Shown here piece after piece: positions 2,074-40,547 of a stretch of 46,859 nucleotides of DNA. The notes beneath the pieces are model-generated. The model saw nothing but the letters and a program-made list of their open reading frames with translations, had not been told where the DNA came from and ran no database searches. The position numbers and the translations under genes were made by a program. The stretch is from an uncultured Verrucomicrobiota bacterium (lineage in GTDB: Bacteria > Verrucomicrobiota > Verrucomicrobiia > Opitutales > Opitutaceae): assembly GCA_903904685.1 (NCBI GenBank), contig CAIVDS010000019.1, forward strand, positions 1 through 46,859, given 5' to 3'. How positions within the stretch are numbered: position 1 is the stretch's first letter; every line of letters starts with the position of its first letter.

Positions 2074-2796
2074 TTACCTGGCGGGGTGGTCGGCGAGGAG
2101 CTTGAAGGCGACGCGCACGGCGGCGTTGGTCGTGCGCGAGCAGGGCCAGATCGCGTCCACCGCATATTGGATGTGGCGGCGCATTTGGGCGATCACCTTC
2201 ACCTTGGCCTCGAACAGGGAGTGCGCGATGGTGATGCCCACCTGGTCGTCGGTCTGCGTGGTCTGCGCGGCGACATACGCGTCGCGCGCGGCTTGCAGCG
2301 CGGCGATATCCTCGGGCTTCACGTTGTCGAGGGGCTCGGCGGCGAGGCGGTTGAGGATGGCCTGCGAGCTGCTTTTGAGGAGCGTGCGGCTGGAGGAGAA
2401 CTGCACGCCGATGTAGTAAGTGGCCCGCAGGGGGTCCTTGAGGTCGGCATACTTGAGCTTGGCGCAGGCCTGCACGACGGCGATGCATTCGAGGAGGGTC
2501 GCCCTGCGCTTTTGCTCGGTGATGGTCGTGCTCTTCCTCTTCGCGCTCTTGTCGCCCGCATCGGTCATGTAGCCGTTGGCCTCGACGATCTTGGCGGTGA
2601 GATCGGCGACGTAGGCGGCGTCGATGCTTTTGGTGGCGAGGGCGGCGGCGTAGGTCACGCTGGAGGCCTCGGTGGCGACCTCGTCGGCGAGGTTGATCTC
2701 GTCGATGAGCTCCTTGTTGATGAAGGCGTTGACGTGCGTGGGCGTTTCGGGGGTGGGATCGGAGGGCGCGGGGGCCGGTGTGGTGGTATCACTCAT
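2074..2796 (-). CDS. Hypothetical protein, alanine-rich and helical
   Basis: This 240-residue soluble protein was not recognised. It opens with a Pro/Thr/Ala-rich tail (residues 2-20) and then is predicted by eye to be almost entirely alpha-helical, with many Ala, Lys and Glu residues and no signal peptide or membrane segment. The ATG at 2796 was chosen because codon use degrades upstream of it and the upstream extension is rich in Pro/Arg. It stands alone on its strand, with the integron on one side and a 1.3-kb gene-free stretch on the other. It could be a lineage-specific structural or phage-like protein, but nothing in the sequence shows which. Confidence 0.6.
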   Translation of the reverse strand: MSDTTTPAPAPSDPTPETPTHVNAFINKELIDEINLADEVATEASSVTYAAALATKSIDAAYVADLTAKIVEANGYMTDAGDKSAKRKSTTITEQKRRATLLECIAVVQACAKLKYADLKDPLRATYYIGVQFSSSRTLLKSSSQAILNRLAAEPLDNVKPEDIAALQAARDAYVAAQTTQTDDQVGITIAHSLFEAKVKVIAQMRRHIQYAVDAIWPCSRTTNAAVRVAFKLLADHPAR

Positions 2797-3327: not shown

Positions 3328-3810
3328 GTAAAAACCATTTCCAATAATCCGAAAATGGCTTCCGCCAATCCTAAAAAGGATTCCTACAAGCCGACTATGG
3401 CTTCCGAACTTACTTATTGGGCTTCCGAACCTCCTTCTACGGCTTCCGATCTTCCTTCTATGGAACCCGAACTTACTTCTACGGAAGGCGATGTTCCTCC
3501 AATGGAAGGCGATGTTCCTTCTATGGAAGATGAACTTACTTCTATGGATTCCAATCTTCCTTCTACGGAAGACGAACTTGCTTCTATGGATTCCGATGTT
3601 CCTTCTACGGATTAAGAATCACCGAAAATGCTTCCCGAATCTCCGTTGGCGAAGTCCTTTTTTGCTTCGATGAAGACATTTTCTCCTTGTTTGGAAGCAG
3701 TTTGCGCGGCTGCGATGGGTTTTCGTCCGTCGGGGCATTCCCAGAATGGTCCGGTCATGCCGGTTTGCCGACTGTCAAAGCCGGTTGGGGCTCCGTGAAG
3801 GCCGGTTTTC
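3328..3810. repeat. Array 1 of degenerate 21-bp tandem repeats
   Basis: From 3328 the sequence divides into 21-base units with no insertion or deletion: 3349-3369, 3370-3390, 3391-3411 and so on, to at least 3642. Typical units begin CCTTCTATGGATTCC and end GATGTT. Columns 2, 9 and 10 (C, G, G) are almost invariant. The phase weakens at 3643-3747 and reappears as GCCGGTT at 3759, 3780 and 3801, again 21 bases apart. Because 21 is a multiple of three, a 108-codon frame runs through (3289-3615) with seven-residue acidic Ser/Thr repeats. It has no recognisable start signal, and the second frame is also partly open. The array is probably non-coding. Confidence 0.8.
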
Positions 3811-4148: not shown

Positions 4149-5207
4149 TTACTTGATGCGCACTTCCTTGCCGGTCTTGGCGGAGACGTAGATCGCGTCG
4201 AGGATTTTTTGGATAGCGAGCGACTCGGCGGGTTTCACATACGGCTCGGCCTTGCCGAGGAGCACGTTGATGAAGTGAACCATGCGGTTGCCGTCCACGA
4301 GACCGGGGAGATGGTTGACCAGTTCCGTGCTGTAGCCGTGAACGCCGTTGCGGAAGAGCTGCAGCGGGGGGAACTTGATGCCGGCCTCGGTGCCGAAGAG
4401 CTGCGTGCCGTTGTTGTCGCCTTCGGGTTGATGCGCGGCCCATGAGGTCTCCAGCAGCACGGTGCGGCCGCTCTTGAGCTTGATGAGAGCGACCGAGAGA
4501 TCATCCACGTCGAACTTGGCTTTGGGATCGATCTCGCTCTTGCCCCAGTTGCCATCGCCCAGGCCGCGCGGGCCGAATTTGGCGTAGGTCTGGCCGCTCA
4601 CGGCGGCGGCATCGAACTCGCCCATGAGGTAGAGGCAGCGGTCGAGCGCATGCACGCCGATGTCGTAGGTGCCGCCGCCGCCGGCGAATTGTTTCTGGGT
4701 GAACCAGGAGCCGATGCGGGGAATGCCGGCGCGGCGGCACCACGCGGTCTTCGCGTGATAGACATCGCCGAGCACGCCCTTGGCGATGAGTTGCCTGGCG
4801 GTCTGCACCTCGGGAATGAAGCGCTGATTCTGGCCGACCATGAGGAGGACCTTTTGCTTCTTCGCCTCGGCGACGAGCTTGGCCGCGTCGGCGGCGTTGG
4901 TCGCCATGGGCTTGTCGAGCATGACGTGCTTGCCGGCCTTGAGGGCGGCGAGCGCGACGGGGGCATGCAGGTAGTTGGGCAGCGCGATGGAGAAGACGTC
5001 GATGTCGGCGCGCTTCAGGAGTTTTTTATAATCGGTGACGAGTTCGGGAATGTTGAACTTGTCGGCGGCCTCGCGACCGCGCTCGGGCGAGACCTCGGCG
5101 ATGGCGACGACCTTGGCGGCCGGATGCTGCCTGAAGGAATTGATGTGATCGTGACCGATGGCGCCGGCGCCGATGACCGCGATGTTGAAGGAGTCTTTCT
5201 TTTTCAT
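4149..5207 (-). CDS. Gfo/Idh/MocA-family NAD(P)-dependent oxidoreductase
   Basis: This 352-residue cytoplasmic enzyme probably oxidises a sugar, inositol or a related polyol. The N-terminal Rossmann fold starts at residue ~8 with IAVIGAGAIGHDH (GxGxxG type). The family's EKP region appears as LDKPMA near residue 97, and the C-terminal alpha/beta domain begins around residue 125. The GGGTYDIGVHALD stretch, with its conserved Asp and His, lies in the substrate pocket region. The start is the ATG at 5207, placed just before the Rossmann beta strand. A TIM-barrel isomerase ends 29 bases upstream on the same strand, so the two form an operon. Such pairs are common in Verrucomicrobiota sugar degradation. 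The exact substrate cannot be told. Confidence 0.85.
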   Translation of the reverse strand: MKKKDSFNIAVIGAGAIGHDHINSFRQHPAAKVVAIAEVSPERGREAADKFNIPELVTDYKKLLKRADIDVFSIALPNYLHAPVALAALKAGKHVMLDKPMATNAADAAKLVAEAKKQKVLLMVGQNQRFIPEVQTARQLIAKGVLGDVYHAKTAWCRRAGIPRIGSWFTQKQFAGGGGTYDIGVHALDRCLYLMGEFDAAAVSGQTYAKFGPRGLGDGNWGKSEIDPKAKFDVDDLSVALIKLKSGRTVLLETSWAAHQPEGDNNGTQLFGTEAGIKFPPLQLFRNGVHGYSTELVNHLPGLVDGNRMVHFINVLLGKAEPYVKPAESLAIQKILDAIYVSAKTGKEVRIK

Positions 5208-5236
5208 GGGGAAGGAGTGTGGAGTTCGGTTGCCGA

Positions 5237-5974
5237 TCAGGCTTTGCCCCATTTCTTGAGCTGTTCGAAGGAGCGGCGCACGGATTCGAGGGGGGCGAAA
5301 TTATATTTTTCGACCTCGACGACATACCAGTCGACGGCGCCGATGCTTTCGACGGCGGAAAAGACCTCGGTGAAGTTGACGGGACCGCCGCCGATTTCCT
5401 TTTCGTCCTTGAGATGGATGAGCTTGATGCGGCGGCCTTGCTCGCGGATGAAGGCGCCGGGGTTCTTGCCCCCGACGTGAACCCAGAATACGTCGGCCTG
5501 ACAGAGGAGGTTGCGGGGGGAGGCGGCGTCGAGGATCCAGTCGAAGGCGCGGCGGCCATCGACGATCTTGAGTTCGAAATCGTGGTTGTGATAATGAAAT
5601 TGGATGCCGTGCGCACGGAGGCGCGCGCCGATGGCGTCGAGCTCTTCGCCGAACGCCTGGCAGGCGGAGGCGGTTGCGAGCAGTTCCTTGGGGAAACCCG
5701 GGCAGATGACGTCGGTCGTTCCGAAGCGGAGCGCGTCGCCGATGACTTGGTTCGGGGTGTTGCGGAGCGCGTCGATGCCGACGTGCATGCCGGAGACCTT
5801 GAGGCCGGCGTCGGCGATCGCTTTCGCGGCCCCGGCGGCATCAAGGTTACCGTAGCCGGCGGTTTCCACGCCAGTGTAGCCGATTTTGGCGACGTCGGCC
5901 ACGGTGGCGGCGAAGTCGGTCTTGGTGAGGTCGCGCAGCGAGTAGAGTTGCAGGGAGACGGGGATTTTGCTCAT
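5237..5974 (-). CDS. Sugar phosphate isomerase/epimerase (TIM barrel)
   Basis: This 245-residue protein belongs to the AP-endonuclease-2-like TIM-barrel family that includes hydroxypyruvate isomerases, inosose dehydratases and sugar epimerases. It starts with ISLQLYSLRD-type sequence (SLQLYSLRDLTKTDF), has GYTGVETAGY in the second strand region, and carries probable metal ligands in FHYHNHDFEL (residues ~132-141) and LIHLKDEKE (~192-200). It has no signal peptide. It is the first gene of the two-gene unit with the downstream Gfo/Idh/MocA enzyme, so the pair probably performs successive isomerisation and oxidation of one sugar. The ATG at 5974 fits the family start closely. Confidence 0.85.
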   Translation of the reverse strand: MSKIPVSLQLYSLRDLTKTDFAATVADVAKIGYTGVETAGYGNLDAAGAAKAIADAGLKVSGMHVGIDALRNTPNQVIGDALRFGTTDVICPGFPKELLATASACQAFGEELDAIGARLRAHGIQFHYHNHDFELKIVDGRRAFDWILDAASPRNLLCQADVFWVHVGGKNPGAFIREQGRRIKLIHLKDEKEIGGGPVNFTEVFSAVESIGAVDWYVVEVEKYNFAPLESVRRSFEQLKKWGKA

Positions 5975-37689: not shown

Positions 37690-37813
37690 GGCGGACGGGT
37701 AAAACGCACCGTGATTCGGCAAATTCCCCGCCGGTGTCAAATGCCGCGCCGCGACGACCCGTTCATCCCGGTTGCCTTTGCGCCGAATCGCGGTTCATAA
37801 CACACGACCTCCC

Positions 37814-38260
37814 ATGATTAACTTCTCCGCTCCCGATCTCACCCAGCATCCTCCCCGCAGCGTCCGCGTCCGCCTCGGCGGCTACGCGCACCTCCCCCGC
37901 CTGCTCGACAAGGCCCGCGCCGTCATCGCCGGCAAGGGCGGCGAGTATCATTACAACTGCCCGCTCGACCAGCTCTTCTTCGAGTTCACCGGCATCAACG
38001 AAGCCGCGATGCTCGCCGCGATCAAAACCGGCAAGACCGACGTGCAGATCCTCGAATGGGTCAACGCCACCGCCAAGCGCCTGCCCCACGAAGTCGCCTC
38101 CTGGTCGTCCTGGCTCGAACAACGCGGCCCCGGCGGCGCCGATGGCCATGAGTGGATCGCGTCGGTCATCAAGGGCAACAACTCCGAGCGCGACGACATC
38201 CGCTCCTTCGCCGACCTGCTCGATCTCGACGACTACCTCAGCTACGGCGGCAAAGCCTGA
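37814..38260 (+). CDS. DUF5069-domain protein
   Basis: This 148-residue soluble protein is of a type frequent in Verrucomicrobiota and Planctomycetota. The recognisable opening DLTQHPPRSVRVRLGGYAHL, then LPRLLDKARA and YHYNCPLDQLFFEFTGI, fit DUF5069. The function of the family is not known. The ATG at 37814 follows a C-rich stretch with no obvious ribosome site. It is a single gene; the following 700 bases hold the second repeat array. Confidence 0.8.
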   Translation: MINFSAPDLTQHPPRSVRVRLGGYAHLPRLLDKARAVIAGKGGEYHYNCPLDQLFFEFTGINEAAMLAAIKTGKTDVQILEWVNATAKRLPHEVASWSSWLEQRGPGGADGHEWIASVIKGNNSERDDIRSFADLLDLDDYLSYGGKA

Positions 38261-38400
38261 ACCGAAGCGAGCGTTGGGGATTGAGCGGCCCCGCCCCGCC
38301 GATCCCCCGGAGCCTCATCCGAGTCCTCCACACGCCCGACCGGCTTGCCCGGTGTCTGCACGCTCCTTGCCAACCGTCTGACGGCAAGCCCGCAAGGAAG

Positions 38401-38799
38401 AAAAACCATCCCCAACACGCTAACGGGACATACCAATAGCGTAATCCCTCGCATCAATAGCGGAATCTCTCTCATCAGTGGAATAATCTCTCTCATCAAT
38501 GGAACAATCCTTCACGACAGAAGCGGAATCCCTCACATCAGTGGAACAATTCCTCGCACCAGAAGAGGAATTTCTCTCATCAGAAGAGGAATCTGTCACG
38601 TCAGAGGAGTAATCTCTCGCGTCGGAAGCGGAGAAACTCTCGCCTGAAGCGTAATTTGTCATGACAGAAGCGGAAAAACTCTCGACAGAGCCCTAACCGG
38701 ACACGTCAGCACGCTAACCGGACACGTCAATGGCCTAATGGGACACGCGCTAATGGCCAAACCAAACATGGCTCTTAAAGAAAGCGACACCCAGACAAC
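38401..38799. repeat. Array 2 of degenerate 21-bp tandem repeats
   Basis: From 38401 to at least 38757 the sequence divides exactly into 17 units of 21 bases, with two weaker units to 38799. Units look like AATCTCTCTCATCAGTGGAA plus one base, with A1-A2, C8, C10 and C13 best conserved. No indels disturb the phase. Frames are open on both strands across much of the array (seven-residue Ser/Asp/Glu/Arg-rich repeats on the minus strand, Ile/Ser/Gly-rich on the plus strand). This is expected from a period divisible by three and argues against a protein. Confidence 0.82.
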
Positions 38800-38990
38800 G
38801 GAGAGCATTGCGCCTTTACACGGATCGGTTCCCGCACAACGCTGGCTTGCAAGACGGATTTCCCTGATTCGACGTCCAATGGCCTGTCTCATCCGCTCAA
38901 AGCTCAAGTGCAGTGACCCATCGCCTGTCCTGAAAATATAAATTGAGAAAACTCGCTGCGGCTCCTTGGCTACGCGCATAGTCCAAATTT

Positions 38991-39215
38991 ATGGACACAA
39001 AAACACTTAATAAAATCTGTTTCACTATTTGCATTGTGTGCATCGTGGCTGGCATCGTGCTTGGGATTGCACTTATTTGGGGTTCACATGACAGTGAGGT
39101 TGTGTGGAAAGGTTTAGGCACAGTTTCAGTTTTATTTGCAGGTTCCTTGCTGACATTAGCTGTAAGCAAAGCTTACACTCAAAAAACTGGTTCCAAATCA
39201 CATGATACTGCCTAA
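38991..39215 (+). CDS. Small two-helix membrane protein
   Basis: This 74-residue protein has two membrane helices, ICFTICIVCIVAGIVLGIAL (residues ~9-28) and LGTVSVLFAGSLLTLAV (~42-58), separated by WGSHDSEVVWKG, and a polar C-terminal tail. The function is unknown. The gene is noticeably more AT-rich than its neighbours, with poly-A/T runs around the start, which suggests a different origin. It starts at ATG 38991. It follows the repeat array by about 190 bases and is isolated. Confidence 0.6.
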   Translation: MDTKTLNKICFTICIVCIVAGIVLGIALIWGSHDSEVVWKGLGTVSVLFAGSLLTLAVSKAYTQKTGSKSHDTA

Positions 39216-39386
39216 GAAGCAGGGATGAGTAGCGTCGAGCCACAGGGGTTCAGGCGAGTTTGATCAATGACCGAGAACCTGACCGCCAAAGCACGTCGTG
39301 TTGGCTCGCCGTCGCAGTGAAGGACGGCGGCGGAGAAAGCCGATCCCGCCTTGCTTTCGACCAAGCTTTTGGCAAACCGTCATTTT

Positions 39387-40547
39387 ATGACGCCCAATGC
39401 ATTCACCTCCCGTCAACTCACCCTGTCGGACCTGACGCTGCCCAAGGAAAAAACCTACGGCACGATCGTGCTGGTCTTCTCGATCCTCGTCTGGCTCGTC
39501 CTGGCGATCAGCCTGGTGGGGGCGTTTTATGCGGGCCTGTTCGCCCTCATCGTTTGGCTGGGACACGGCTTGCTGGGCGCGCATTTGCGGGCCGAGTCGG
39601 TGCGGGTGACCGAGCGCCAGCTGCCCAAGCTTGACGAGACGTTTGCGCGCGTGTGCGGGAAACTCGGTGTCGCCCCCGTTCCTCGTCTTTACGTGCTCCA
39701 GGCGGGCGGCGCTCTCAACGCCTTCGCCGCCAAATTCTCGGGGCGCAATTTTGTCGTGGTGAACTCGGACCTGCTGGAAGCGTTCGGCCTCGACTCGGCG
39801 GAGATGGAATTCATCCTCGGCCACGAGCTCGGCCACCTGAAGAGCAACCACATCTTCAAGCGCGTGCTCATGGCCCCCGGCATCCTCCTGCCGCTCATCG
39901 GCCCGGCCTACCTGCGCGCCTGCGAGGCTTCCTGCGACCGGCACGGGGCGTTCGCCGCCAGCGATCTTCGGGGAACGACGCGCGCCCTGCTCGCCCTCGG
40001 CGGCGGCAAGGCCCACGGCCGCATCCTCGACGCCGATGCCTTCGCCGAGCAGCACACCGACGACCGCGGCTTCTTTGTTTCGTGGCACGAACTCTCGTCG
40101 GCCTATCCCACCCTTTCGCAACGGGTCGCCAAGATGCTGGCGCTCGACAACCCCAAGTTCGACACCAAGCCCAAGCGTCATCCGCTGGCCTATGTGCTGG
40201 CGTTTTTCACGCCCGGAGGACGGGCCAGTTCGGGCGGCGCCAACGCGCTGGTCTTCGTCGTGATCATCGGCCTGCTCGCCGCGATGGCCATCCCCGCGTT
40301 CTCAAAGGTGCGGGCCAATGCGCAAACAATGGCCTGCATCAACAACGAGCGCCAGATCGCCGCGGCGGTGCAGCAATACACGCTGGAAAACGGCAAGGCC
40401 CCGACCGCGCTCGCCGATTTTGCAGGACCGGGCAAGATACTGACATCGTTTCCAGCCTGTCCTGCGCACGGCCATTATCAGATCGACCCGCAAAGCGGCG
40501 GCGCGGTCAAGATCACCTGCTCGGTGCATGGCGAACATACGTATTGA
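39387..40547 (+). CDS. M48-type zinc metallopeptidase fused to pseudopilin-like segment
   Basis: This 386-residue membrane protein has an N-terminal helix pair (residues ~25-58), then an M48-type catalytic domain with the zinc motif HELGHLKSNH (HExxH) after EMEFILG, and a later Glu candidate in CEASCDRHGAFA. From ~290 a new hydrophobic segment, ALVFVVIIGLLAAMAIPAFS, is followed by KVRANAQTMACINNERQIAA, the pattern of the N-terminal helix of type IV pilin-like proteins. The leader peptide and the conserved Glu5 of true pilins are lacking. A short C-terminal domain with Cys pairs (FPACPAHG, ITCSVHGEH) follows. The ATG at 39387 was chosen. Confidence 0.8.
   Translation: MTPNAFTSRQLTLSDLTLPKEKTYGTIVLVFSILVWLVLAISLVGAFYAGLFALIVWLGHGLLGAHLRAESVRVTERQLPKLDETFARVCGKLGVAPVPRLYVLQAGGALNAFAAKFSGRNFVVVNSDLLEAFGLDSAEMEFILGHELGHLKSNHIFKRVLMAPGILLPLIGPAYLRACEASCDRHGAFAASDLRGTTRALLALGGGKAHGRILDADAFAEQHTDDRGFFVSWHELSSAYPTLSQRVAKMLALDNPKFDTKPKRHPLAYVLAFFTPGGRASSGGANALVFVVIIGLLAAMAIPAFSKVRANAQTMACINNERQIAAAVQQYTLENGKAPTALADFAGPGKILTSFPACPAHGHYQIDPQSGGAVKITCSVHGEHTY

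Follow-up and report, generated by a model that had tools for sequence, protein, structure and literature searches.

Dispersed arrays of 21-bp direct repeats upstream of two gene families in an Opitutaceae genome are candidate rows of protein-binding sites

Tandem arrays of 21-bp units precede the members of two unrelated gene families in the genome of an uncultured Opitutaceae bacterium, and we tentatively propose, with a probability of roughly 0.4, that these arrays are rows of direct candidate binding sites controlling the gene downstream, by analogy with known repeat rows. One of the families encodes 106-aa proteins that resemble winged-helix repressors of the ArsR/MarR/SmtB kind; the other, here called X, is all-helical and matches no named family. 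The stretch of DNA that we analysed (46,859 nucleotides; the window) corresponds to contig C19 in a genome of 3.2 Mb and 114 contigs (G000); C numbers denote its contigs and other G numbers denote other genomes. About 23 array loci with about ten groups of unit sequence are known in this genome, and no single unit sequence is common to all copies. The total comprises 7 winged-helix loci (with C96 and C100 merged), 10 X loci (with C63 and C43 merged) and 6 others (array 2 of the window, C112, C35, C21:73.6k, C58 and C91, the last at a contig end), and depends on these merges. The list is probably incomplete, because most of the genome was searched by similarity alone. Units lie head-to-tail without spacers in intergenic DNA at many loci, the exception being C113, where the repeat is partly coding.

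Table 1. Arrays and neighbouring features of the window
Feature	Position	Strand	Description
X gene paralogue	2074-2796	-	Downstream of array 1; start set from homologues (2970 in the ORF list)
Array 1	3328-3691	-	13 scored 21-bp units, group gamma; strand is the direction of gene X
Gfo/Idh/MocA oxidoreductase gene	4149-5252	-	Pfam PF01408, E 1e-32; 3' end faces array 1
DUF5069 gene	37772-38260	+	Pfam PF16798, E 2e-43; 3' end precedes array 2
Array 2	38422-38757	+	16 in-register 21-bp units, group alpha, orphan array
57-codon ORF	38768-38941	+	Starts 10 bp past the last in-register unit of array 2
74-aa ORF	38991-39215	+	Weak phage-holin-like match, Pfam PF16081, E 0.0021
M48 peptidase gene	39351-40547	+	Pfam PF01435, E 4.6e-16; first clear gene downstream of array 2

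An earlier note on this DNA had described array 2 as seventeen or more units of 21 bp; the array is real, but 16 in-register units are readable. None of the 16 contains an indel, and a weaker 21-bp periodicity spans 38398-38785. The lag-21 match of array 2 reaches 0.74, whereas none of 2000 shuffles exceeds 0.46, and Tandem Repeats Finder detects the array as well. Its units are degenerate, with a mean pairwise identity of 0.56 across all 16 (0.24-0.90), and the end units are unlike those of the core. We set the plus strand by homology, since array 2 matches arrays preceding X and winged-helix genes; its BLAST paralogues in its own genome lie on C112, C114, C63 and C39/C99, and array 2 shares its unit type with arrays that precede X genes and, in one case, a winged-helix gene. 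C39 and C99 overlap at the array by exactly 141 identical bases and were therefore counted as one locus. Within the window, neither an X gene nor a winged-helix gene follows array 2, which we thus call an orphan, and a comparison with a plasmid collection gave no match. The 57-codon ORF, which has an earlier in-frame ATG at 38738, is doubtful as a real gene; no kinship to X or winged-helix genes was detected, and PHROGs gave no match. The PF16081 match of the 74-aa ORF scores 18.7 bits, below the cut-off of 27.8. Flanks fetched for homologues of the DUF5069 gene in relatives contain no lag-21 array.

Array 1, which shares the 21-bp period and lies about 35 kb from array 2 as first described, reaches a lag-21 match of 0.77 (0.45 in shuffles). 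Weak 21-bp periodicity carries on into both of its flanks, and its BLAST paralogues in the genome are on C35, C21 and C58. The X gene downstream matches no Pfam, NCBIfam, PHROGs or PADLOC family at threshold. The two arrays had been presented as relatives whose best unit pairs agree at about 12 of 21 positions and whose profiles should recognise each other. We found a best pair of 13/21 at any rotation, with a median of 13 in column-permuted controls as well; mean unit matches were 7.64 versus 7.69 in controls. Profiles of the two families scored below most permuted controls (p 0.93), and those of the window arrays, in gene-ward orientation, gave a z of -0.07. Sequence kinship between arrays 1 and 2 is thus at chance on either strand and in all rotations, and we rejected it. 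The proposed opposite orientation is correct: the minus strand of array 1 corresponds to the plus strand of array 2, because array 1 reads toward X on the minus strand and array 2 is assigned to the plus strand through its relatives. Both arrays do adjoin a gene 3' end, as had been pointed out, but this is incomplete: each array also precedes a co-directional gene or ORF, the next one along, and it is the side facing that gene or ORF, not the gene 3' end, that carries the array pattern. What survives of the suggested dispersed family with a function or amplification mechanism is a dispersed class, supported by paralogues and fixed orientation, but without arrays 1 and 2 as relatives of each other.

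The arrays at C21:11.4k, C114:23.3k and C39 each precede a gene for a 106-aa protein; these proteins are paralogues that begin with MSETNP. A protein search found 8 places in the genome, 5 of them gene-first, and 1 (G006) in 12 other members of the genus. All 8 have an upstream array, with lag-21 matches of 0.70-0.94 and at least 4 unit types; the G006 array is weak (0.51), though lags 42 and 21 rank top there. Between array and gene lies a conserved leader of ~100 bp, which is conserved just before the start, ends in a T run and has A/T phasing near 10.5 and 21 bp. Among three proteins queried against Pfam, two pass the cut-off (HTH_20, HTH_5 and HTH_24 for one, MarR_2 and HTH_24 for the other) and the third has no match; the NCBIfam ArsR model matches below its cut-off, and the PDB entry NmtR matches with an E of 4e-5. 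The structure model is poor (pLDDT 57.6). Genes upstream of the winged-helix loci include those for RecD2 (C39), a RecJ-like protein (C96), a formyltransferase (C56) and methionyl-tRNA synthetase (G231). We scanned six neighbour ORFs from 5 of 7 winged-helix loci, some of them cut short and two on the other strand, and judged the others by eye, without finding a motor NTPase; the six encode two GDSL lipases, PanE, an aldo-keto reductase and two proteins without a family, and no conserved downstream partner gene is present among them.

Family X was first seen beside arrays at C114 and in the window, and a search found it at 11 places in the genome and at one each in G010, G011 and G003. We set aside C43, which begins at a contig end, and C4, a fragment with stops. 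All 9 places with a usable flank, 7 of which were found gene-first, have an array upstream (lag-21 match 0.68-0.90). These arrays are mostly of unit types unseen before and stop ~220-630 bp short of the gene. Contigs C63 and C43 probably adjoin, as C63 breaks off within the beginning of an X gene, ~220 bp past its array, and C43 begins 2 bases before X codon 2. A remnant of the X C-terminus follows the array on C112. At the X locus of C113 (L141 / L121, before 45909), a 21/42-bp repeat enters the coding N-terminus, giving a heptapeptide repeat rich in Pro, Ser and Thr. The X array is clear in G010 (0.75) and weak in G003 (0.52), and that of G011 is stronger at lag 20 (0.71) than at lag 21 (0.57); G243, which has an X fragment, has no array there. 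X is present in 4/372 genomes sampled from the order, and none was found in viral contigs. Its structure model (pLDDT 81.7, pTM 0.56) gave nothing usable in a fold search, the best E being 0.11.

A lag scan covered 492 kb of the genome, a biased selection with the known arrays among it. It gave 16 hits at lag 21 (a few of them borderline or split), 12 at lag 42 and at most 4 at any other lag, and contained two new arrays of different sequence, C21:11.4k and C114:23.3k. Among 317 genome tiles of 1200 bp, 6 reach 0.65 at lag 21, all within five known arrays, and each of 14 other lags is reached by 0 or 1 tile. In relatives, 4/320 tiles reach 0.65 at lag 21, all in G002, and two of these are 7-bp-based repeats. 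The 7-bp-based GAGCT-type arrays of G002 (L093 6171-6517 and L092 17630-17867; lags 14, 21, 28 and 35) are a separate kind of repeat, and the same genome has a 39-bp array with units ~96% alike (L088 10759-11073). Contigs C31, C39, C63, C91, C96, C99 and C100 terminate in or beside arrays, as expected of strain-variable arrays or assembly confusion.

We compared all arrays against each other (27 arrays, 351 pairs, 60 column permutations each). A z of at least 5 was reached by 27 pairs, every one on the gene-ward strand, and by none on the opposite strand (highest 4.3); the strands of orphans were assigned by homology, so only pairs of gene-bearing arrays test orientation independently. Group alpha comprises the X arrays of C114 and C63, the arrays of C112 and the window (array 2), and the winged-helix array of C39; group beta, the winged-helix arrays of C99, C114 and C31 and the X array of C24; group gamma, the X array of the window (array 1), C35, C21:73.6k and C58; and group delta, the winged-helix arrays of C100, C96 and C56. 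The X arrays of C9 and C14 form a further group. Alpha and beta unit types each occur before both winged-helix and X genes. The X types of C98, C9/C14, C94, C26 and C113 have no winged-helix partner in what was searched, and group gamma matches the winged-helix arrays only weakly, at C56 (z 3.3-3.9). Gene-ward of the gamma array C21:73.6k lie genes for a cytosine methylase and an Eco29kI-type restriction enzyme (L020 3279-5155). When 13 representatives of the groups were compared, similarity on the gene-ward strand did not significantly exceed that on the opposite strand (p 0.09), so that descent of every unit type from one ancestor is not supported.

The rows consist of roughly 7-25 direct units, mostly asymmetric; dyad symmetry is mostly absent, with C98, G010 and G003 as exceptions. 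Fitted spacings equal 21 bp in 320 of 329 cases and are not multiples of 21 in 4, in a fit that cannot place overlapping units, favours 21 and imposed 21 on G011. Steps of 20 bp occur now and then, in C99, C98 and C9. On the sense strand of 17 arrays, A/T content has a faint 7-bp sub-period (lags 7, 14 and 28 positive, ~2-3 standard errors). Phased bends were rejected, as the arrays lack A/T phasing bar a slight AAA/TTT excess at lags 10-11. Columns within units covary strongly with their neighbours, and group alpha also has some pairing-like excess, which we read as block inheritance of unit variants.

Neither window family was found by BLAST in 17 relatives, and another member of the array 2 family had no match in 12 members of the genus, so both sequence families look lineage-specific; the expectation that such arrays would recur in related genomes holds instead for other 21- and 42-bp arrays beside the same gene families. 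The winged-helix family is rare, occurring in 2/372 sampled genomes of the order with a narrow profile and in 8/250 of the family with a wider one, G000 and G006 included. All three homologues in genus g13 have a period-42 (2x21) array just upstream, with lag-42 matches of 0.65, 0.73 and 0.67; lags 42 and 63 are present and lag 21 is at background. A further homologue has a weaker array (G443, 0.55), that of G392 has none, and that of G283 has just 143 bp of flank and resembles another ArsR protein. A GTDB scan returned one locus, from a Verrucomicrobia bacterium, with a protein as in G006 and identical to it over the 100 bases compared.

Arrays change much faster than their flanks at two loci of this lineage. 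C96 and C100 share the end of a recJ-like upstream gene (RecJ_OB) and the downstream gene, and are probably one locus in two versions, because the recJ part matches in full only in C96 and in C100 only from its first base. They differ at 1/101 positions in the left flank, 59/273 plus one unit in the array, 4/105 in the leader and 1/143 in the gene, a divergence of 22% for the array and 1-4% for the flanks. None of the C96 units recurs unchanged in C100, the best matches differing at 1-5 positions; all unit pairs that differ at up to 6 positions, a non-independent set, together contain 220 transitions and 76 transversions. Between C56 and G006, the upstream formyltransferase region is 85.5% identical and the leader and gene 75%, and the array between these shared regions does not align. 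Hypervariability is not a general rule, however: the 42-bp array of g13 is 83-92% conserved between three species, like its flanking genes, with one 21-bp length difference.

Under the binding-row proposal, winged-helix proteins of this family would occupy adjacent units, spaced by two helical turns, and together form a nucleoprotein row that would control the promoter downstream, in a manner like the autoregulation of iteron or centromere systems. On this view, array 2 would be a remnant or a predicted site row acting in trans, most likely for the C39 protein, whose own array is of the same type. The proposal draws on the resemblance of a winged-helix protein, direct asymmetric units, two-turn spacing and upstream placing to iteron and centromere rows. 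It is supported by the presence of arrays at all winged-helix and assessable X places against a low background, by the 3/3 arrays of g13, by unit types shared between families, by the 27 gene-ward pairs and by the 320/329 spacings. It is weakened by X types without a winged-helix partner, by G010, a genome with an X gene and its array in which no winged-helix match was obtained, and by the distance at which X arrays end before the gene, promoter position being uncertain. G392 without an array, array 2 without an adjoining X or winged-helix gene, the poor winged-helix model, and the lack of a partner NTPase or shared downstream gene in the part tested also count against it. So does symmetry, because ordinary ArsR dimers bind dyads. 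The presumed recognition-helix region is the most variable part of the protein (entropy 1.22 vs 0.55), yet, with n=7, similarity between arrays tracks how closely the proteins are related outside this helix (r 0.86) and not the helix itself (r 0.38, p 0.08, partial correlation -0.39). The arrays of C99 and C114 are almost of one type although 5/12 helix residues differ. Co-variation of helix and array is thus not supported, which weakens the binding-row proposal further.

The main rival is neutral inheritance of the period, in which an ancestral 21-bp array was passed on with duplicating cassettes as a neutral or selfish minisatellite, slippage or unequal exchange kept the period, and the arrays are inert; we consider this possible, though doubtful. 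That array groups follow cassette phylogeny (the same r of 0.86) fits such descent, as do the 20-bp steps and the lag of 20 in G011, and a period is easily inherited without a need for selection. By eye, C91 seems to have a formyltransferase-like tail before a delta-type array, like a segmental duplicate, and the BrickBuilt elements of Porphyromonas show that dispersed intergenic minisatellites exist (PMC4596501). Against inert arrays count their occurrence at all 17 assessable winged-helix and X places, the 42-bp arrays conserved between species of another genus, the use of one unit type before two unrelated gene families, and the mere 4/329 spacings off the 21-bp frame despite wide unit differences, in a fit that favours 21. 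Mobile cassettes or MITE-like elements, with the array as body and genes as passengers, would also explain copies at many loci, the flank sequence that gamma and alpha copies share beyond the array and the 5' ends common to C99, C114 and C56; homologues of the DUF5069 and RecD2 genes in relatives with flanks lacking a lag-21 array fit insertion but also loss. We consider such elements quite improbable, as the ends of homologous copies differ between groups and an unsystematic look noticed no transposase or terminal inverted repeats.

It is improbable that the arrays work at the RNA level, as transcribed 5' leaders that are structured or processed (an attenuator or sRNA array). The fixed orientation toward the gene, the conserved winged-helix leader with its T run and the better-than-shuffled sense folding of some arrays (C39, -3.1; C63, -4.5; G010, -3.3; G003, -5.0) would suit an RNA, but 27 arrays (first <=252 bp) fold on average close to their shuffles (mean z -0.87 sense, -0.95 antisense), the consensus structure of the leader, at -2.9 kcal/mol with compensatory change in 2/11 pairs, is weak and Rfam has no match in the window at gathering score. 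Neither array folding nor the leader consensus supports this reading. That the arrays encode heptapeptide repeats throughout (21 bp being 7 codons) is very remote: the C113 repeat enters coding sequence, one alpha frame is interrupted by just one stop across five copies (in array 2) and two gamma frames contain 1-2 stops across four copies, but every frame of array 2 has at least one stop in 104-105 codons, no frame is stop-free in the five alpha copies, many other unit types contain TAA or TAG by eye, and codon-position variation gives the open frames no advantage. As no frame is open through the array in all copies, we rejected a coding repeat. Multi-copy addressing, in which winged-helix paralogues would each have their own fast-changing 21-bp row and X genes and orphans such as array 2 would carry the same code, seems unlikely. 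One chromosome would then contain several insulated protein-array circuits that turn over their codes within the population, as a bacterial analogue of satellite and centromere-protein co-evolution.

Plasmid iterons with a winged-helix Rep likewise have direct asymmetric repeats of ~20 bp, about two helical turns apart, and the Omega unit is 7 bp. Unlike iterons, the arrays described here come without a replication protein that we could see and in many unit types in one chromosome. A similar arrangement is TubR-tubC of type III plasmid partition, which also places a small winged-helix gene beside an upstream direct-repeat row, and whose TubR also represses its own operon (PMC5016525). The arrays here differ in having no TubZ or other motor in the part tested, and in their many chromosomal copies of 21-bp units whose sequence differs by locus. 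The same review describes parS1-3 of pSM19035, where one regulator, Omega, acts on repeat rows over several promoters with an affinity that depends on unit number; Omega is plasmid-borne and ribbon-helix-helix, whereas the protein here is winged-helix (PMC5016525). BrickBuilt of Porphyromonas gingivalis comprises 19 dispersed intergenic arrays of 23-nt units with leader and tail, for which promoter elements are reported; it is a minisatellite-MITE, one named repeat with inverted-repeat ends, and not about ten unit sequences beside two gene families (PMC4596501). In the literature searched, we found no report of 21-bp tandem repeats in Verrucomicrobia, and the Opitutaceae tandem-repeat matches listed appear unrelated.

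Tandem arrays in bacteria typically consist of a single repeat sequence that has spread by copying. In the present arrays the sequence is replaced but period, place and orientation persist, beside two unrelated gene families and across genera. A common context emerges for the 106-aa regulators and for protein X, which occurs at 11 places in this genome and belongs to no known family. If nothing reads the arrays, they would be a clean case of period-preserving repeat turnover; if a protein reads them, the many natural array-protein pairs would make the evolution of DNA-binding specificity directly testable.
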